Below, in pieces: positions 43,188-56,007 of a DNA stretch of 64,000 bases (positions within the stretch are counted from its first letter, which is position 1; every line of letters starts with the position of its first letter). This DNA is from Rhodococcus sp. ARC_M5 (GTDB taxonomy: Bacteria; Actinomycetota; Actinomycetes; Mycobacteriales; Mycobacteriaceae). Made by a program: the position numbers and the translations under genes. Under the pieces are notes generated by a model. That model saw nothing but the letters and a program-made list of their open reading frames with translations, was not told the DNA's origin and made no database searches. The DNA is taken from contig NZ_JALGQE010000001.1 of assembly GCF_022810405.1 (NCBI RefSeq), forward strand, positions 558,001 through 622,000, given 5' to 3'.

Positions 43188-44012
43188 TCAATCTGTCGTG
43201 AGCAACCGCTTACGGAACAGATCGAGTACCTGATCCAGCGCCTGCCGTGTCGGCTCCCCCGGCTCGTCGATCAGTCCTTCGGTGACGACGGAATGCGGCG
43301 GTCCGAATGCTTCCGGGTTGAAGGCGGAGTCGGGCAATTCCACCGAGACGAATGCGTCGCCGAGTTGCTCACGCAGCCACTGGAATCGCGCGGGCGGACA
43401 CATCTTGTCGCCTTCGAAACGCATCCCCAGGACCGTGAGCTCGCCTGCCGCACAACGACTTTTCACCTTGTCCAGGTCGCCCTGGGTGATGTCGATCGAT
43501 CGACTGCGGGACTTCGATGCCGCGAACGGAAGTGACGGCTGCGAGAGCACCGGTGCGATCAGTCGATCGTCCGCCGCCATGGCGAGAGCGAACCCGCCGG
43601 TGAAGCACATTCCGATGGCACCGACGCCTGGTCCGCCGCAGCGCTCGTGCTCCTGCGCTGCCAGGGCGCGCAGCCACACCACGACCCGTGACGATTTCCC
43701 GGTGGCCAGGATGGTGAACTCGCGACTGATGCACGCCGGCACCATGGCGCGGGACATGGTGGCAACGGTGCCGAGCGCTCCCAGTGGCGCAGCCAGCGGA
43801 TCCTTGCCGTCGACTCCGAACAGGTGCGGAACGACGGCCGTACAACCGATTCCGGCGACGGTTCTCGCGAAGTCCGCGACCCTCGGAGTGATGCCCGGCA
43901 TTTCCGACATCACGATCACAGCCGGTCCGGTTCCGATGCGATACACGGGCGCTGTCCGCCCGTCCGCGGTGAACTCGGTTCGCTCGAAGTCGGCCAGCGT
44001 GTCATCGGTCAT
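43188..44012 (-). CDS. Dienelactone hydrolase family protein
   Basis: A 274-residue alpha/beta hydrolase with a Cys nucleophile, C136, in GAIGMCFTGGFALAM, the dienelactone-hydrolase signature. A Glu-rich MSEMPGITP oxyanion-side loop lies at about 35-43. It hydrolyses cyclic esters such as dienelactones in ring-cleavage pathways, but the natural substrate here is unknown. No chlorocatechol genes are near. Confidence 0.85.
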   Translation of the reverse strand: MTDDTLADFERTEFTADGRTAPVYRIGTGPAVIVMSEMPGITPRVADFARTVAGIGCTAVVPHLFGVDGKDPLAAPLGALGTVATMSRAMVPACISREFTILATGKSSRVVVWLRALAAQEHERCGGPGVGAIGMCFTGGFALAMAADDRLIAPVLSQPSLPFAASKSRSRSIDITQGDLDKVKSRCAAGELTVLGMRFEGDKMCPPARFQWLREQLGDAFVSVELPDSAFNPEAFGPPHSVVTEGLIDEPGEPTRQALDQVLDLFRKRLLTTD

Positions 44013-45177: not shown

Positions 45178-45972
45178 TCAGGACACCACAGGTTCTGCGA
45201 TCGGCGTCTGGAAGGACCACAGATGCCCCTCCGGATCACGAACGCCGTACTCCCTGACGCCGTAGGGCATATCGGCGGGCGCGTAGTCGATCGCTGCCCC
45301 GGTTGCGGCCACTCGAGCGTGATGGCCGTCGACGTCGTCGATCAGGACCGCGAGCGAGGCGGTGACCATGCCGTTGGTCAGGGGCGAAACCATTCGATGT
45401 TCAGGAGCCTCGCGGTGCAACCAGACAACACCGTCACCGGCGTGAACCTCTCCGTGGACCGCTCGGTCACCGTCGTATTCGATCGGTCCCGGAGCCAGTC
45501 CCAGCACGTCTACGAGGTAGGAGTGGGCCGCTGCGATGTCGCGGTAGACCAACAACGTGGTCCGACCGGTCACCGCCGGCTCTTCGGTCGACAGGCACGA
45601 GAGTAGATCCAACAGCGCGTCGTCGCCGAGAAGAGCACCGTGCAGTAGTCGGTCCTCGACCGCACGAACCCGTTCGCGCACCCGAGCAAGCTCCGCCAGC
45701 CGACGGTCCAGGTCGGCCAGATGTTGCCGAGTCAGGTGCTGGAAATCCGCCGCGTCCGGATCGACATCGGCGAGCGGAGTTCCCAATTCTCGAAGCAGTC
45801 GAATACGGTACAGCCGATCGATATCTCCTCCGTCGTACCGACGCCTACCCCCTCCGTCTCGGTCCGGGGCGAGCAAACCCAGTTCTTCGTAGTACCGCAA
45901 CGTGCGTTCGGTGACGCCGGTTCGACGCGCGACGTCACCGATTCCCCAGGTGATCGGACCTTTGCTGTTCAT
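45178..45972 (-). CDS. MerR regulator fused to a VOC (glyoxalase-like) domain
   Basis: A 264-residue fusion. Residues 8-115 are a MerR-type HTH and coiled coil (WGIGDVARRTGVTERTLRYYEELGLLAPDRDG). Residues about 135-260 are a VOC/glyoxalase fold (TTLLVYRDIAAAHSYLVDVLGLAPG and GVREYGVRDPEGHLWSFQTP). The VOC part may bind a small ligand or modify an antibiotic-like molecule and so drive the regulator. No divergent target gene is obvious. The MFS gene of the next operon ends 55 bases upstream. Confidence 0.85.
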   Translation of the reverse strand: MNSKGPITWGIGDVARRTGVTERTLRYYEELGLLAPDRDGGGRRRYDGGDIDRLYRIRLLRELGTPLADVDPDAADFQHLTRQHLADLDRRLAELARVRERVRAVEDRLLHGALLGDDALLDLLSCLSTEEPAVTGRTTLLVYRDIAAAHSYLVDVLGLAPGPIEYDGDRAVHGEVHAGDGVVWLHREAPEHRMVSPLTNGMVTASLAVLIDDVDGHHARVAATGAAIDYAPADMPYGVREYGVRDPEGHLWSFQTPIAEPVVS

Positions 45973-46027: not shown

Positions 46028-47320
46028 TCAGACGTCCTCGAGTCGAATTCCCTTGGTTTCCTTCATGAAGAAGCAGGCGACACCGGTCAAGGCGGCCAGG
46101 AACATGATGTACACGCCGAACACCCAGCCCAGATCGAGGCCGAGGAAGAGTTGGTTGAGATAGGGCGCTGTTCCACCGAACACCGCTACCGAGAACGAGT
46201 ACGCGAATCCGATTGCCTGCGTGCGGAGTCGGGTGGGAAAACTCTCCGACAACGTCGACGACAGAATCGAAGCCGGGACGGCGATGACGAGCAGGGCAAC
46301 TGTCGACGGGAGCAGCAACGTCCACCACTGCGTCGAGATCATCATCGTCAGAGGGATCTGCAGAACGAACATCAACACGGCGAAGGCAGCCAGCATCGGC
46401 CGGCGACCGATCGAGTCCGAGAGACGACCGAAGAACGGCAGCGACACCAACGCAATCAACTGCGCGATGACGAGCATCCAGTACGCGGTATCGGGATTCA
46501 TCCCGCGCTGCGTGATGGCGAATGTCGACACGTACGAGGTCCAGGTGTAATGCGCCGCTGTGATTCCCGACGTCATGCCGATCATCAACACGATTGCCTT
46601 CACAACCGTCTTTCGTGCGATCGGTGCCTGTTTCACCTTGTTCTGCTCCGAATCGAAGACGTCGCTCTCGTCCATGTTCTTGCGCAGGTACAACGCGAAC
46701 AGTGCCAGAACTGCACCGAGCAGGAACGGGATACGCCAACCCCATTGACCGACAGCCGATTCGGACAGTGTCGAGGTGATGACGCCACCGACGGTGTACG
46801 CCAGTGCCGAGCCGCCGAAGATCGCAACGAATGCGACGCTTCCCCACATCCCACGTCGGTTCGGTGGCGCGATCTCGCCGACGTACGAGTAGGCCGTCGC
46901 CGACTCGCCGCCGTGGGCGAAACCTTGCATGACGCGTGCGAGCAGCAGCAGCACCGACGCCCAGGCCCCGATCGCACCGTAGGTGGGCATGATGCCGATC
47001 AGCAGGCTTCCGGCGGCCATCATCAACATGGTGGTGACGAGGACGAACTTGCGCCCCTTCTTGTCTGCGATCCGTCCGAACACGATGCCGCCGAGCGGCC
47101 GCATCAGGAATCCGACGGCGAACACCGCCAACGTGGACAGTAGGGCCGAGACCGGATCGGTCTGGCTGAACATCGCCGCGGCGATGAACGGTGCGAACAC
47201 CGCGTAGGCGCTCCACTCGTACCACTCGAGTACGTTGCCGATCGTGCTGGCGAACAACGACTTCTTCCGCGAGGAGATGTCCGGTGTCGAGCGTGTGTCG
47301 CGGGGTGATCCGACGGTCAT
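46028..47320 (-). CDS. MFS transporter, MHS (metabolite:H+ symporter) type
   Basis: A 430-residue, 12-helix carrier. The MHS hallmark GFLMRPLGGIVFGRIADKKGRKFVL (about 70-95, motif A) and the R-V-M-Q-G-F-A-H-G-G-E loop are present. It probably imports a carboxylic acid by proton symport. It overlaps the stop of the acyl-CoA ligase gene by ATGA, so import and CoA activation are coupled. TetR-type operators lie upstream of the ligase. Confidence 0.9.
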   Translation of the reverse strand: MTVGSPRDTRSTPDISSRKKSLFASTIGNVLEWYEWSAYAVFAPFIAAAMFSQTDPVSALLSTLAVFAVGFLMRPLGGIVFGRIADKKGRKFVLVTTMLMMAAGSLLIGIMPTYGAIGAWASVLLLLARVMQGFAHGGESATAYSYVGEIAPPNRRGMWGSVAFVAIFGGSALAYTVGGVITSTLSESAVGQWGWRIPFLLGAVLALFALYLRKNMDESDVFDSEQNKVKQAPIARKTVVKAIVLMIGMTSGITAAHYTWTSYVSTFAITQRGMNPDTAYWMLVIAQLIALVSLPFFGRLSDSIGRRPMLAAFAVLMFVLQIPLTMMISTQWWTLLLPSTVALLVIAVPASILSSTLSESFPTRLRTQAIGFAYSFSVAVFGGTAPYLNQLFLGLDLGWVFGVYIMFLAALTGVACFFMKETKGIRLEDV

Positions 47321-48933
47321 GAGGTACCACTTTCGCTCGAGTGAGTCAGTGCTGAAACAGGTTTGAGTGCTGCGCGACGAATTTTCCCGGTCTGTGTCTT
47401 GGGCAGCTCGTCGATGATGTGTATTTCTTTCGGACGCTTGTAGGCAGCGAGCCGATCGCGCGCGAAGGCCATCAGCTCGTCGGTGGTCACGGCCGAACCA
47501 CTGCGGACCGACACGTACGCGACCACCGACTCCCCTTGATAGGTGTCGGGACGACCGACCACGGCGGCTTCGAATACCGTCGGGTGTTCGTAGAGGGCGT
47601 CCTCGACCTCTCGGGGCCAGACCTTGTATCCGGAGACGTTGATCTGGTCCTTCAGCCGGTCGACGAGATAGACCCATCCCTGTTCGTCGATGACCGCTAC
47701 GTCCCCGGTGTGCAGGCGACCTTCGGGCATCGTCGACGCCGACGCCTCCGGGTTCTTCCAGTATCCCGAGACCACCTGTGGCCCGGACACTTCCAACTCG
47801 CCGGCAACTCCCGGCTCGGTGGGTCGCCCGGTGGGGTCGAGTGTGCGCAGCCGCACGCGAGGAAGCGGCAGTCCGACGGACAGCGATCCGCTCGACGTGT
47901 CCACGGGTGCCCGGAGTCCGGGCGGCACCGCGATCACACCGGCGGTGGTCTCGGTCATTCCGTACGCATTGTGGATGTAGCACCCGAACTTCGCCTCGAA
48001 CGCGGAGACGGTGGCCGGAGGAATGGGCGCGCCGCCCGAGTACAGCGCCTTCACCGAGGCAAAATGCGCGCGGTCGGCGCCCGGGCTCTCGGAGATCGCG
48101 TTGAACACGGTGATGGACCCGATGGTGTACGTGACCCGATGCTCGACGAAAGCGTCCAACGTGACGCCCGCATGGAAGCGGTGAGCGAACACGAGCACGC
48201 AGTCCCGCACCATAGCCACAGCGGCATCGAGCATGGCCCCGGTGATGTGGAACAGCGGCGCGACGGCGAACACGACGTCCCCGTCCTCCGTACCCGCACG
48301 CTCACCGAAGTCCGAGGCCGTCGCGAACGCGTTGGCGTGCGAGATCCGAGCCCCCTTGGGCGGCCCCGTGGTTCCGGAGGTGTAGGCCAACAGCGCCAGA
48401 TCGTCCGGCTGCGGTGCGAATTCGTCCATCACGCGACCTCGGTAGGCCTCGACGAGACCGAGCAGGTCGTTCTCGGGCGTCGGCGTGATGCGCGTCGTCG
48501 CGGTGAACACACGCGGATCGTCGCGAGTCTGCAGATCCAGTCCGCTTGTGCTCACGAAGAACCGAATCGTACTGCCCTGCAACGAGGTTTCGAGCGCCTC
48601 GAGATCAGCCTCGTCGCACACGAGGGCGACGGGCTCCGCGTCGTCGAGCAGGTGCCGTAGTTCTCTGTTGCGGTACATCGGATTCAGGATCAGAGCCACA
48701 GCGCCGATCTTCCACAGCGCCAAGAACGTCAGGGCGTAATGGGGAACGTTCTGCAGATAGATCCCGACGCGGTCGCCACGAGTGACTCCGCGGTCCGCGA
48801 ACGCGGCGGCGAGAGCGTCCGAGGCCTCGTCGACCTCGCGGGCAGAGAGAACGGCGTCGAAGTACGCCAACGCGGGCCGATCGGGCGACCGGCGCACCCG
48901 GGCGCGCCAGGCATCGAGGATGATGAGGGGCAT
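47317..48933 (-). CDS. Acyl-CoA synthetase (class I adenylate-forming ligase)
   Basis: A 538-residue ligase. AMP-binding motif YTSGTTGPPKGARISH, the A5 motif YGMTETT, the A8 hinge DRLKDQINVSGYKVWPREVE and the A10 Lys in PKTQTGKIRR are all intact. It activates a carboxylic acid to its CoA thioester with ATP. The start at 48933 is the natural MPLIIL N-terminus. The adjacent importer suggests an exogenous acid; the neighbouring kinase-dehydrogenase pair suggests a 4-hydroxyacid. Confidence 0.9.
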   Translation of the reverse strand: MPLIILDAWRARVRRSPDRPALAYFDAVLSAREVDEASDALAAAFADRGVTRGDRVGIYLQNVPHYALTFLALWKIGAVALILNPMYRNRELRHLLDDAEPVALVCDEADLEALETSLQGSTIRFFVSTSGLDLQTRDDPRVFTATTRITPTPENDLLGLVEAYRGRVMDEFAPQPDDLALLAYTSGTTGPPKGARISHANAFATASDFGERAGTEDGDVVFAVAPLFHITGAMLDAAVAMVRDCVLVFAHRFHAGVTLDAFVEHRVTYTIGSITVFNAISESPGADRAHFASVKALYSGGAPIPPATVSAFEAKFGCYIHNAYGMTETTAGVIAVPPGLRAPVDTSSGSLSVGLPLPRVRLRTLDPTGRPTEPGVAGELEVSGPQVVSGYWKNPEASASTMPEGRLHTGDVAVIDEQGWVYLVDRLKDQINVSGYKVWPREVEDALYEHPTVFEAAVVGRPDTYQGESVVAYVSVRSGSAVTTDELMAFARDRLAAYKRPKEIHIIDELPKTQTGKIRRAALKPVSALTHSSESGTS

Positions 48934-48977
48934 CGAGGACTCTTTCGATCGAACATTGACCTGACCGAGATCGACCG

Positions 48978-48995
48978 ACCGAGCACTCGCTCGGT
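48978..48995. promoter_or_regulatory. TetR operator upstream of the acyl-CoA ligase-MFS operon
   Basis: ACCGAGC-actc-GCTCGGT is a perfect 7-bp inverted repeat. Its reverse-complement partner upstream of the acyl-CoA dehydrogenase (49753-49770) differs by one base. It lies between the ligase and TetR genes. Confidence 0.75.
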
Positions 48996-49084
48996 CACTT
49001 CTTCGAGTGTTACGGATCACAGCGAAAGTGTCAACCGGGTGCTTCCGGGACCACACCCGTCGCCCGGGCATCTACGGTAAGCGC

Positions 49085-49702
49085 ATGACCGCGACCGGCA
49101 CCTGGCGAACGTACGAGGGCTCGAACCTCTCCCCTGCCTTGGCGTCGGCGTTGAACAAGTTTGTCGAGCAGGGCTATCACGGAACGTCGGTACGGCAGAT
49201 CGCGGCCGGAGCCGGCCTGTCCGTTCCCGGTCTCTACCACCACTTTCCGTCGAAGCAGGCTCTGCTGGTCGGCATCATGGACGCGTCGATGGACGAGCTG
49301 TTGGAACGAACCCGATCGGCAGAGGCCGGTGCCGGCTCGTCGCCGAGTGACCGTTTCGACGCCGTCGTCGAAGCCCTGCTGCTGTTCCACATTCACAGGC
49401 GCGACGCCGCCTTCGTGTGCTCGACGGAAATCCGCAGCCTCGATCCTGCGAATCGCGCCGCCTACATCTCCAAACGCGACGAGGAACAGCGACTGCTCGA
49501 CGCGATCGTCGCCGCCGGTGTCGATGCAGGCCTGTTCGACACTCCACACCCGAGAGACGCCAGTCGAGCCGTCACGACGATGTGCATCGGCGTCGCCACG
49601 TGGTATCGCCCCGAGGGGCCGCTGCCTCCGAGCGAGCTGGTGGCGGTCTACCTCGACATTGCCCGTCGTACGGTCGGTGCTGCGACCGGCGGGCAGCAGT
49701 AG
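49085..49702 (+). CDS. TetR-family regulator of the ligase/dehydrogenase/kinase locus
   Basis: A 205-residue regulator. The N-terminal helix-turn-helix is at about 17-60 (YHGTSVRQIAAGAGLSVPGLYHHFPSKQALL). The ATG at 49085 gives a normal length; an upstream start at 49007 would extend into the operator region. The nearly identical operators on both sides imply that it controls the divergent ligase-importer operon, itself, and the dehydrogenase-kinase operon. Confidence 0.88.
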   Translation: MTATGTWRTYEGSNLSPALASALNKFVEQGYHGTSVRQIAAGAGLSVPGLYHHFPSKQALLVGIMDASMDELLERTRSAEAGAGSSPSDRFDAVVEALLLFHIHRRDAAFVCSTEIRSLDPANRAAYISKRDEEQRLLDAIVAAGVDAGLFDTPHPRDASRAVTTMCIGVATWYRPEGPLPPSELVAVYLDIARRTVGAATGGQQ

Positions 49703-49752
49703 CTGCCCCGGAATCCTTGACCCGATCGAGCGATTGTGTCAACCTTCCAGAG

Positions 49753-49770
49753 ACCGAGCGAGTGTTCGGT
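49753..49770. promoter_or_regulatory. TetR operator upstream of the dehydrogenase-kinase operon
   Basis: ACCGAGC-gagt-GTTCGGT. Its reverse complement matches the site at 48978-48995 in 17 of 18 positions. It lies 24 bases upstream of the acyl-CoA dehydrogenase GTG. Confidence 0.75.
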
Positions 49771-49793
49771 CGGTACCGGACAGGGAGCATATC

Positions 49794-51005
49794 GTGGCCA
49801 TCGATCTGACGTACGACCCCGACATCGAGAAGCTGATCGATCGGACTCGGACGTTCACTCGCGAGTACGTACTCCCCATCGAGGACCGGTTCCTGGGCAA
49901 CATCGCCGACGCCGGCGGCGACGAGCTGCGCATCGAGATGCAGGCAGCCGCTCGAGATGCCGGCGTGTTCGCGCCGCATGCGCCGGTCCAGTACGGAGGC
50001 CACGGGCTCTCGATGAGCGACCGCGCGCCTGTGTTCGAGGAAGCCGGCTACTCACTGTTCGGTCCGATCGCCCTCAACCTCGGCGCGCCGGACGAGGGCA
50101 ACGTCCACATGCTCGCTCACATCGCGTCTGCAGCGCAGAAGGAGCAGTTTCTCGCTCCCCTCGCTCGCGGTGACCAACGATCGGCCTTCGCGATGACCGA
50201 GCCGGCACCGGGTGCGGGCTCGGATCCCGCTGCCCTCACCACTGCCGCCGTCCGGGTCGACGGTGGTTGGAAGATCAACGGGCACAAGTGGTTCATCACC
50301 GGTGCCGACGGTGCGGGGTTCTTCATCATCATGGCTCGGACATCCGGCAAGCCCGGCGACCGAGGCGGTGCCACGATGTTCCTGGCACCCGCCGACACCG
50401 CGGGCATCGCCGTCGGCCGCCACATCGGCACTCTCGACAAAGCGATGATCGGTGGACATTGCGAGGTGTTCTTCGAGAACGTGTTCGTCCCCGACGAGAA
50501 CGTCCTGGGGGCCGTCGACGAGGGCTTCGCCTACGCACAGGTGCGCCTGGGGCCCGCTCGCATGACACATGTGATGCGCTGGCTCGGAGCCTCCAGACGG
50601 GCCCACGACATCGCCGTCGCTCAGGTGGCCCAGCGTGAAGGGTTCGGCGGAAAGCTCGGGGATCTCGGCATGGTGCAGAAGATGGTCGCGGACAACGAGA
50701 TCGACATCGCAGCTACCCGGGCACTGCTGACCGTTGCCTGCTTCGAGTTGGATCGAGGCGGGCACGCGAGCAACGAGACGTCCATCGCCAAGACGTTCGC
50801 CGCCGAAGCCATCTTCCGAATCGTCGACCGCAGCATCCAGATGTGCGGGGGTCTCGGGGTTTCCGACGATCTTCCGTTGGCCAGGCTTTCGCGTGAGGTA
50901 CGTCCGTTCCGCGTCTACGACGGCCCGTCCGAGGTGCACCGGTGGGCCATCGCCAAGCGAACGATCGGTGCAGCCAAGCGCGCAGCGCGGGAGGCACAGT
51001 CGTGA
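49794..51005 (+). CDS. ACAD10/11-type acyl-CoA dehydrogenase
   Basis: A 403-residue flavoenzyme. The FAD segment AFAMTEPAPGAGSDP and W-F-I-T-G-A-D loop are present. Near the C-terminus the motif is VYDGPSEVH: the usual catalytic Glu of YEGT is replaced by Asp-Gly, as in mammalian ACAD10/11 (DGPDEVH). That subgroup acts on 4-phosphoacyl-CoA rather than doing simple 2,3-dehydrogenation. The start is GTG with AGGGAG upstream. It is coupled by GTGA to an APH-type kinase gene, the same two activities fused in mammalian ACAD10/11. Confidence 0.9.
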   Translation: MAIDLTYDPDIEKLIDRTRTFTREYVLPIEDRFLGNIADAGGDELRIEMQAAARDAGVFAPHAPVQYGGHGLSMSDRAPVFEEAGYSLFGPIALNLGAPDEGNVHMLAHIASAAQKEQFLAPLARGDQRSAFAMTEPAPGAGSDPAALTTAAVRVDGGWKINGHKWFITGADGAGFFIIMARTSGKPGDRGGATMFLAPADTAGIAVGRHIGTLDKAMIGGHCEVFFENVFVPDENVLGAVDEGFAYAQVRLGPARMTHVMRWLGASRRAHDIAVAQVAQREGFGGKLGDLGMVQKMVADNEIDIAATRALLTVACFELDRGGHASNETSIAKTFAAEAIFRIVDRSIQMCGGLGVSDDLPLARLSREVRPFRVYDGPSEVHRWAIAKRTIGAAKRAAREAQS

Positions 51006-52027
51006 GCGAATTGCCGGGCATGAATCGTGATGCGCTGGAACGGTTCCTGCGGGAGAACGGGATCGAGGTCGACGGCACGTTGCTCGTCGAAATGATCAGC
51101 GGCGGGCGATCGAACCTCACCTACAGGGCGTACGACGACACCTCCACCTGGGTCGTCCGTCGACCTCCCACCAGTGGGCTCACGCCCTCCGCACACGATA
51201 TGGCCCGCGAGTGGGCCGTCACCGACGCACTCGCATCCACCGATGTACCGGTCGCGCGGACCGTCGCATTCGACCGTGACGGTTCCGCACTGGGCGCGCC
51301 CATGACCGTCGTGGAGTTCGTTCCGGGGCGAGTCGTCCGCACGCGCGAGGACCTCGACGATCTGACGGATACGCAGGTCGCGGGCAACGCCGCCGAGTTG
51401 GTGCGCGTACTCGCCGCACTTCATGCCGTCGATCCCATGTCGGTGGGTCTCGAGAAGTTCGGCCGCCCCGACGGTTTCGTCACCCGTCAGGTCGCCACGT
51501 GGGCTCGGCAGTGGCAGACGGTTAAGACTCGTGAGCTACCCGACGTCGACCGACTGCACCGTGCGCTCGAAGCTGCGGTGCCCACCCGCTCGGCCGCGTC
51601 CATCGTGCACGGCGACTATCGCGTCGACAACACCATCCTCGACGCAGAGGATCCCAGTTCTGTTGCAGCGGTGGTGGACTGGGAGATGTCCACGCTCGGC
51701 GATCCGTTGACCGATGTGGCGCTGATGTGTGTGTACCGGCAACCCGTGTTCGACGCCGTTCTCGGTGCCGATGCCGCGTGGACGAGCGACCGGTATCCCT
51801 CGGCAGCGGATCTGGTGCAGCAGTACGCCGTTCGATCGGGACGCGACGTGGACAACTGGGGCTTCTACCTGGCGTTGGCCAATTTCAAGCTCGGGGTGAT
51901 CGGCGAGGGCATCACCCATCGAGCACTGTCGGGCTCCGATACCGGTGCCGGAGCCCGCAATGCCGCCGACGCGACGCAGGAGTTCATCGCAGCCGGGCTC
52001 AGAGCGCTCTCGGGATCGGACGGGTGA
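51002..52027 (+). CDS. APH-family acyl-CoA kinase (LvaA/ACAD10-N-like)
   Basis: A 341-residue aminoglycoside-phosphotransferase-fold kinase. The HGDYRVDN catalytic loop (Asp base and Asn metal ligand) and the DWEMSTLGDP metal loop are intact. The region SGGRSNLTYRAYD forms the nucleotide loop. Paired with an ACAD10/11-type dehydrogenase, it should phosphorylate the 4-hydroxyl of a 4-hydroxyacyl-CoA, as LvaA does in levulinate catabolism. The start is GTG at 51002, inside the dehydrogenase stop codon. Confidence 0.88.
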   Translation: MSELPGMNRDALERFLRENGIEVDGTLLVEMISGGRSNLTYRAYDDTSTWVVRRPPTSGLTPSAHDMAREWAVTDALASTDVPVARTVAFDRDGSALGAPMTVVEFVPGRVVRTREDLDDLTDTQVAGNAAELVRVLAALHAVDPMSVGLEKFGRPDGFVTRQVATWARQWQTVKTRELPDVDRLHRALEAAVPTRSAASIVHGDYRVDNTILDAEDPSSVAAVVDWEMSTLGDPLTDVALMCVYRQPVFDAVLGADAAWTSDRYPSAADLVQQYAVRSGRDVDNWGFYLALANFKLGVIGEGITHRALSGSDTGAGARNAADATQEFIAAGLRALSGSDG

Positions 52028-54849: not shown

Positions 54850-56007
54850 ATGAGCTCTCACGGCATCGACATCACCGGTATCGGCGCACTGTCCGGCTAC
54901 GGCTGGGGTGCGTCCGCCCTGTGGGACGGCCTCGCAACGGGCAAGGCAGCGGCCGGCCTGCACCACGACCACACGCGACCGGGACAGAATCCGGTGTGGC
55001 TCGCGAAGGTCCCCGACGACGGGGACCGGAGCGACGGCACCAGCCGATTCGGACGGGCACTTCGCGCGGCCGCACGCGAGGCCGTCGACGACGCGATGGC
55101 GCGGGGCTGGCAGCCGGGTCGGCGGGTGGGTCTGATCCATGCCGTCGTCCTGGGTGAAGTGGACGAGTGGCGCAACTTCTATCTGCGCGACGGCGGAGAA
55201 CGCCGTGTACGCGACTACCTGACACTGATGCCGTCCACTCCGGTGTCTCTGCTGATGCAGGAATACGGCTTTCACGGCCCGGCCATGAACGTCTCGGCGA
55301 TGTGCGCGTCGGGCAATGCAGGTCTGCTCACCGCCAAGATGTGGCTCGATACCGGATTCGTCGACGACGTCGTGTTCGTGGCCACGGACCTGTCTCTCAC
55401 TCCGGAGAACATCGACCACTTCGTGAAGCTCGGAGTCGGTGTGGTGGACGTGGAACCTCAGGAGGGCTGCCGACCGTTCCAGGAAGGCAGTCGTGGATTC
55501 GGAATGGGCGAAGCAGCAACTGCTTTCGTACTCACCAACCGTAGCGATGCTGCATACGCGCGGGTATTGGGCGGATCGATGACGCACGACGCGTTTCATG
55601 CAACCTCGATCGACCCTTCACTCACCCGGGTACGGGCCTGTTTCGAGGAGGCATTGGCCGACGCCGATGTCGTCCCCGAACAGGTGCGCTACCTCAACGC
55701 TCACGGCCCCGGCACCGCGCAATGCGATGCGGCGGAGACGGCGATGTTGGAGACGGTACTTCGGTCCAACGCGCAGGTGTACTCGGTGAAGCCGTTGACG
55801 GGACATTGCCAGGGGGCCGCGTCGGCAATCGAAACCGCGTCGGCGGTCATGGGATTCGAACGTGGACTCGTGCCTGCGGCCCCGCAGGTCTCGGATGGTC
55901 ATCACCTACTGCTCGACGGATTCACCAGAGCAGAGCCAGGATTGACGGTGAAGTCGTCATTGGGAATGGGAGGACACAACTCGGTGGTGGTGTTGGCTCC
56001 TGCGTGA
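54850..56007 (+). CDS. Stand-alone beta-ketoacyl synthase
   Basis: A 385-residue thiolase-fold ketosynthase. The catalytic Cys is in NVSAMCASGNAGLLT, the two His in LNAHGPGTAQCD and KPLTGHCQGAASAIE, and the C-terminal GMGGHNSVVVL block is intact. The full Cys-His-His triad means active condensation is likely. No acyl carrier protein, ketoreductase or other fatty-acid/polyketide gene is adjacent, so its partner is unknown. It could serve a lipid, a specialised metabolite, or a KAS II-like role. Confidence 0.83.
   Translation: MSSHGIDITGIGALSGYGWGASALWDGLATGKAAAGLHHDHTRPGQNPVWLAKVPDDGDRSDGTSRFGRALRAAAREAVDDAMARGWQPGRRVGLIHAVVLGEVDEWRNFYLRDGGERRVRDYLTLMPSTPVSLLMQEYGFHGPAMNVSAMCASGNAGLLTAKMWLDTGFVDDVVFVATDLSLTPENIDHFVKLGVGVVDVEPQEGCRPFQEGSRGFGMGEAATAFVLTNRSDAAYARVLGGSMTHDAFHATSIDPSLTRVRACFEEALADADVVPEQVRYLNAHGPGTAQCDAAETAMLETVLRSNAQVYSVKPLTGHCQGAASAIETASAVMGFERGLVPAAPQVSDGHHLLLDGFTRAEPGLTVKSSLGMGGHNSVVVLAPA

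Follow-up and report, generated by a model that had tools for sequence, protein, structure and literature searches.

What five neighbouring genes at positions 46028-52027 of a 64,000-nucleotide stretch of Rhodococcus sp. ARC_M5 (contig NZ_JALGQE010000001.1; hereafter the window) do together, and on which substrate they act, was the question examined here. The original prediction described them as a single operon for the catabolism of 4-hydroxy acids that carries the parts of mammalian ACAD10/11 on two genes. Gene calls and Pfam models recovered all five of the families it had named, arranged as two divergent transcription units instead of one operon: an acyl-CoA ligase and a transporter whose genes share an ATGA overlap, and, in the opposite direction, a TetR-family regulator, an acyl-CoA dehydrogenase and an APH-fold kinase, the last two genes overlapping by 7 bp (Table 1). 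The locus probably constitutes a regulon under TetR control that handles a short 4-hydroxy acid, as judged from gene families, phylogeny, conserved residues and a shared palindrome. It very probably serves to take up such an acid, couple it to coenzyme A, and phosphorylate and eliminate its hydroxyl so that the product can be degraded as an ordinary fatty acid would be. This is a known type of pathway in a separate bacterial form; its chemistry has already been described.

A dehydrogenase tree of 112 rows placed the window dehydrogenase among 94 rows that included the lva-type dehydrogenases (LvaC clade; support 96) and ACAD11 in a sister clade of nine rows (support 100). Together the two clades were split from nine ordinary acyl-CoA dehydrogenases with a Shimodaira-Hasegawa-like approximate likelihood ratio test (SH-aLRT) value of 100; this tree and the kinase tree described below were quick searches without bootstrap. 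The window dehydrogenase was not a member of the ACAD10/11 clade, and the label "ACAD10/11 parts" had to be given up for it: its relatives were the Pseudomonas lva-type dehydrogenases. The ACAD10/11-clade homologue of this genome was another protein (L031, G000:C46), 54% identical to mouse ACAD11 and part of a second system, with a kinase on a different contig (L049, G000:C14) that grouped with the kinases paired with the ACAD10/11 clade in R. opacus.

Identity of the window dehydrogenase was 36% to mouse ACAD11 and 48% to the dehydrogenases of three lva-type operons (a Stutzerimonas plasmid, P. peradeniyensis and P. citronellolis), which were themselves 34-35% identical to mouse ACAD11. LvaC of P. 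putida KT2440 was placed not by its own sequence but via gene order and the P. citronellolis dehydrogenase, which is 78% identical to LvaC according to PMC6692424. By sequence, the closest solved structures were ACAD11 (201 bits) and M. abscessus 4HR3 (192 bits). PMC11342911 puts LvaC at 62% and 56% identity with the ACAD10 and ACAD11 domains, respectively, in conflict with the 34-35% found here for lva-type dehydrogenases against mouse ACAD11; the published values may be similarities, or may belong to another sequence.

Simulations of mouse ACAD11 put R626, H634 and R637 in contact with the 4-phosphate; D753 serves as the base, and nonconservative swaps of the first three are the most disruptive (PMC12440821). 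Equivalents of R626, R631, H634, R637 and D753 were present in 94/94 LvaC-clade rows, the window included, and in 9/9 ACAD11-clade rows, and all five occurred together in 0/9 ordinary acyl-CoA dehydrogenases, these counts being drawn from related sequences and not from independent events. All 103 rows of both clades carried His at the H597 equivalent; each of the nine ordinary enzymes had Thr or Ser there. In 22 of the 94 LvaC-clade rows, among them the window, Val took the place of the Cys in the HCMR motif. Asp replaced the usual Glu in the window dehydrogenase (VYDGPSEVH), as had been read from the DGP motif in place of the YEGT Glu. Two clades of phosphate-eliminating "dehydrogenases" with one common catalytic set are in this way set apart.

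The kinase gene adjoined the dehydrogenase gene in 37 of 38 same-genus loci (L086-L120 and L123-L125), and the sole miss, L125, stopped at a contig end; because of this adjacency the locus is not a chance assembly. The five diagnostic residues, the monophyly of the two clades and this adjacency largely refuted the view that an ordinary acyl-CoA dehydrogenase lies beside an unrelated kinase and only superficially resembles lva and ACAD10/11. That view is highly improbable, even if the fold is nearly neutral towards it: the predicted dehydrogenase structure (predicted local distance difference test, pLDDT, 93.8) matched ACAD11 best (2wbi, Z 46.1) and an ordinary short-chain acyl-CoA dehydrogenase nearly as well (45.5). 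Fold comparison was dropped as a discriminator, and residues and trees were used instead.

The window kinase matched Pfam APH at 5e-49, with PDB 3dxp (195 bits) and ACAD11 (163 bits) as sequence matches, and the HGD and DWE loops were as intact as first read (VHGDYRVDN and VDWEMSTLGD). It kept the equivalents of catalytic D220 and N225 and of the CoA-side R176, a position that was Arg in 63/66 non-LvaA kinases versus 1/14 LvaA-type kinases. On a midpoint-rooted tree of 80 rows, restricted to loci whose kinase lay no more than 7 kb away (24 others were removed), the window kinase tentatively joined the ACAD11 branch (support 91) and the LvaA-type kinases separated at support 100; it was not LvaA-type. 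The predicted kinase structure (pLDDT 93.6) matched 3dxp best (Z 33.8), followed by Rv3168 and a 25-hydroxysteroid kinase. The structure alignments comprised 39 and 37 selected rows. An Arg-Glu pair, the Arg standing beside the helix-C Glu, was invariant in 37 kinases. Matching this Arg by number to the "R86" of PMC12440821 failed, PDB chain numbering giving position 84, and no claim is made for it.

Kinase type also bears on the small partner LvaB. A DUF6285 gene occurred in the loci of 13/14 LvaA-type kinases versus 0/63 other kinases with flanks, the 63 being the 66 non-LvaA kinases less mouse ACAD11, 3DXP and 9O56, with flanks of varying length. LvaB is most likely DUF6285 by synteny, because the P. 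peradeniyensis order regulator-kinase-DUF6285-dehydrogenase-reductase-ligase equals lvaR-A-B-C-D-E. DUF6285 was found in 0/37 genomes of the genus. Since DUF6285 goes with LvaA-type kinases only, the missing LvaB-like partner remarked on in the original prediction is expected for a kinase of the other type. LvaB would gain from this a sequence family and a rule for its occurrence. In P. citronellolis LMG 18378, a DUF6285 gene (L130:5593-6264) lay between an LvaA-type kinase and a phosphatase. PMC6692424 reports no lvaB homologue for the matching cluster of strain LA18T; going by LMG 18378, one may have been overlooked there.

A palindrome, ACCGAGCGAGTG[CT]TCGGT, was common to both transcription units, and two near-identical copies of it flanked the TetR gene. 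A scan returned two matches with 0 mismatches, and shuffled sequences gave a mean of 0.30 at ≤3 mismatches; across the whole own genome only these two copies matched exactly. The palindrome stood before the dehydrogenase gene with at most one arm mismatch in 33 of 35 further same-genus loci (L086-L120, from 34 genomes), starting ~37-52 bp upstream. Such arms occurred 20 times in the 64-kb window, four of them at the locus, where each of the two sites was counted again at a 4-bp shift, so about 1 of the 35 loci would be expected to carry it by chance. With the variant palindrome of most other species, 25 sites were found in 17 of the 37 genomes and none with the backward control. Twenty of these sites lay before a dehydrogenase gene of the family, two before the ligase genes of G006 and G007, and three elsewhere. 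Outside the genus, a site with one arm mismatch preceded the dehydrogenase gene in 5/11 loci (L185, L192, L195, L200 and L203); the same scan returned no palindrome in L182, L184, L196, L197, L199 and L206.

The palindrome was also lost together with the genes concerned. TetR orthologues were found in 34/37 genus genomes at E 1e-30, and the two same-genus loci devoid of the palindrome (L108 and L109) lay in G011 and G012, both without a TetR orthologue. L090, L115 and L116 had no linked ligase or transporter, and their genomes held no ligase at E 1e-130; in these loci the ligase-side palindrome was missing and the dehydrogenase-side one was kept, a state repeated in G030 (L250). The ligase-transporter pair of G006 and of G007 was on another contig than the dehydrogenase, and there the palindrome, exact in G006 and with one mismatch in G007, lay ~20 bp upstream of the ATG of the ligase. 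Because the palindrome precedes these unlinked ligases, ligase, transporter, dehydrogenase and kinase would form one regulon on grounds apart from adjacency. TetR is the probable protein that binds the palindrome and the predicted repressor of both units, which gives a concrete putative operator and regulon for one genus of actinobacteria.

Three further observations concern the palindrome and its loci. L250 is a case of natural decay: of the dehydrogenase gene, only the final 36 codons are left before an 85% identical kinase, and TetR and the first operator are kept. An extra palindrome occurred in two relatives, exact at L232:6409-6426 (G032) and with one mismatch at L233:6253-6270 (G020), in each between a row of abhydrolase, acetoacetate-decarboxylase-like and abhydrolase genes and a different TetR gene. 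A one-mismatch site was also present in G017:C217.

The two remaining proteins would supply substrate. The ligase matched the Pfam AMP-binding model (3.6e-85) and its C-terminal domain, with 8weu and 8wev as the nearest PDB entries (234 and 233 bits). The importer had been called an MHS protein. Its membership in the major facilitator group stood (Pfam MFS_1, 7e-42, and Sugar_tr), but the narrower assignment was not secured, NCBIfam TIGR00883 (MHS, 2A0106) scoring 340 bits against a curated cut-off of 443. The transporter was linked to the ligase in relatives, including the unlinked G006 and G007 loci.

The class of substrate depends largely on a reductase. A short-chain dehydrogenase gene directly followed the kinase gene in 17/35 same-genus loci (L086-L120), that is, in 17/23 of those outside the window lineage, and also followed the pair in some Nocardia (L195, L200), Gordonia (L203) and Georgenia (L052) loci and on a Rhodococcus plasmid (L051). 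These cases, in which the reductase accompanies the pair as LvaD accompanies LvaC, together with L110-L112, where transporter, ligase, TetR, pair and reductase all stood together, would suit levulinate or another 4-keto acid as the true substrate, with an unlinked reductase taking the LvaD step and the rest proceeding as in Pseudomonas. For the window this is unlikely. The original prediction had seen no levulinyl-CoA reductase at the locus, and none was present there or in any of the 12 window-lineage loci; the relatives' pair-linked reductase, used as query in place of LvaD itself, had no orthologue in the own genome (best 31%). Because the window lineage is without this reductase, a ready-made 4-hydroxy acid is the likelier substrate. 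The simplest reading is that the reductase was lost and that this lineage uses ready-made 4-hydroxy acids. The dienelactone hydrolase gene at 43188-44012 was considered as a lactonase and excluded, as it was nearby only in window-lineage loci and not in L110-L112.

In the preferred reading, an MHS-like symporter would import the acid and the ligase would form the 4-hydroxyacyl-CoA. By analogy with published work on ACAD10/11 and lva, the APH-fold kinase would then phosphorylate the 4-hydroxyl with ATP, and the LvaC-clade dehydrogenase, with its flavin adenine dinucleotide and without net oxidation, would expel the phosphate to give a 2-enoyl-CoA that could enter ordinary beta-oxidation. TetR would sit on the palindromes before both units until released by an acyl-CoA of the pathway or by the acid. 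Candidate substrates are 4-hydroxybutyrate, 4-hydroxyvalerate and opened gamma-lactones. That uptake, CoA activation, 4-phosphorylation and removal belong to one pathway had been proposed from the letters alone, and the phosphate-binding residues and the shared, conserved operator now lend the proposal support. Such a compact cassette could possibly find use in the metabolism of 4-hydroxy acids, of gamma-lactones and of chemicals made from levulinate.

Several observations weigh against a dedicated 4-hydroxy acid regulon. Pairing was not universal: for LvaC-clade loci outside the genus set (L052-L054 and L128-L207; the best 80 of 589 rows of the genome contig scan were kept), 24/83 had no kinase within 7 kb, some near contig ends and others not. 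The window kinase shared only 31% identity with mouse ACAD11 and 21-22% with the kinases of lva-type operons, and none of the five proteins scored above an NCBIfam cut-off. Two palindrome matches also arose in 6/100 shuffles at ≤3 mismatches (the genuine pair matches perfectly), and 40 further rows of the own genome matched at two or three mismatches, against 7 for the backward control. Given the extra palindrome that two relatives carry beside hydrolase genes and a different TetR, the sequence may be read by other TetRs besides that of the locus. Finally, the AtuA and acyl-CoA carboxylase contexts of related pairs make other hydroxyacyl-CoAs possible as substrates. In L051 and L123 the pair was accompanied by genes for AtuA, acyl-CoA carboxylase and further beta-oxidation enzymes, and in L050 and L124 with acyl-CoA carboxylase and a Fis-type regulator (L050:7049-8818, Fis-type by Pfam and not AtuA), L050 being ~8 kb from limC.

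These four contexts suggest that such pair copies are used in terpenoid breakdown. They are also grounds for supposing that the window pair, by the same phosphorylation-elimination logic, acts on a hydroxyacyl-CoA that is larger or branched, for example one derived from a terpenoid or another plant acid, and strips it of its hydroxyl; an APH-fold kinase does take part in eliminating the hydroxyl of a 25-hydroxysteroid (9ft5, Z 28.5, 22% identity; abstract of PMC8449060). For this locus the idea is quite improbable, as the ten window genes scanned around it included no terpene-type gene and an MHS-type importer, by its substrate range, fits a small polar acid. The wider neighbourhoods of pairs without a linked ligase (NUDIX, GntR/aminotransferase, E1 dehydrogenase, lipase, esterase, luciferase-like and SelO genes) were set aside as apparent background synteny that gives no substrate clue.

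With a 4-hydroxy acid retained as the preferred substrate, the locus can be compared with three known systems. To the lva operon (lvaR-ABCDEFG of P. putida KT2440 and P. citronellolis) it is linked by the dehydrogenase clade and the 48% identity noted above, by an APH-fold kinase, an acyl-CoA ligase and an importer, and by the proposed chemistry, which in lva leads from 4-hydroxyvaleryl-CoA to 2-pentenoyl- or 3-hydroxyvaleryl-CoA. It differs in a kinase from another branch and in the absence of DUF6285/LvaB and of a reductase. The lva operon has a PrpR-like sigma-54 regulator (LvaR) and the LvaFG importer, whereas the window has TetR with its palindrome, an MHS-like importer and two divergent units. 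With mammalian ACAD10/ACAD11 it shares all phosphate-contacting and catalytic dehydrogenase residues and the predicted conversion of 4-hydroxyacyl-CoA to 2-enoyl-CoA, and its kinase tentatively falls on their side in the midpoint-rooted tree; unlike them, it has a sister-clade dehydrogenase, two separate proteins, HVMR for HCMR, and a bacterial transporter, ligase and regulator in addition. The 25-hydroxysteroid kinase/25-phosphosteroid lyase of Sterolibacterium likewise relies on a kinase with this fold to prepare a hydroxyl for elimination, but that kinase is 22% identical, the substrate is a steroid, and the partner in the window is an acyl-CoA dehydrogenase.

Separate genes for the two enzymes, pointed out in the original prediction, proved to be the general state among the annotated bacterial loci read and no peculiarity of this one, and PMC11342911 reports that the ACAD10 domains can be replaced by a kinase and a dehydrogenase that bacteria encode separately. 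Homologues of lvaABCD are reported for Alpha-, Beta- and Gammaproteobacteria (PMC6692424); a search of the open-access literature turned up no such pathway for this actinobacterial genus. The chances are about even that the locus belongs to a separate actinobacterial dehydroxylation branch, with an LvaC-clade dehydrogenase, an LvaB-free ACAD11-like kinase, a genus-wide TetR-palindrome regulon and sister copies recruited into terpenoid-type clusters; in the window lineage it would have lost the keto-reductase and turned into a pathway dedicated to 4-hydroxy acids.

Table 1. Genes and putative operators of the locus, in window coordinates.
Feature	Position	Strand	Remarks
MHS-like MFS carboxylate/H+ symporter	46028-47320	-	second gene of ligase unit
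Acyl-CoA ligase (AMP-binding)	47317-48933	-	first gene of ligase unit
Putative operator copy 1, ACCGAGCGAGTGCTCGGT	48978-48995	-	upstream of ligase; exact match
TetR-family regulator, probable repressor of both units	49085-49702	+	Pfam TetR_N and TetR_C_24
Putative operator copy 2, ACCGAGCGAGTGTTCGGT	49753-49770	+	between tetR and dehydrogenase; exact match
LvaC-clade acyl-CoA dehydrogenase	49794-51005	+	GTG start; Pfam acyl-CoA dehydrogenase N, M and C domains; assigned by tree and residues
APH-fold kinase, probably of the ACAD11-like branch; predicted 4-hydroxyacyl-CoA kinase	50999-52027	+	GTG start; Pfam APH

Two neighbouring genes of the window were recorded beside the locus. Positions 45178-45972 encode a fusion of a MerR-type DNA-binding domain and a glyoxalase-like domain, and positions 54850-56007 encode a beta-ketoacyl synthase-like protein that is kept beside the locus in the window lineage.

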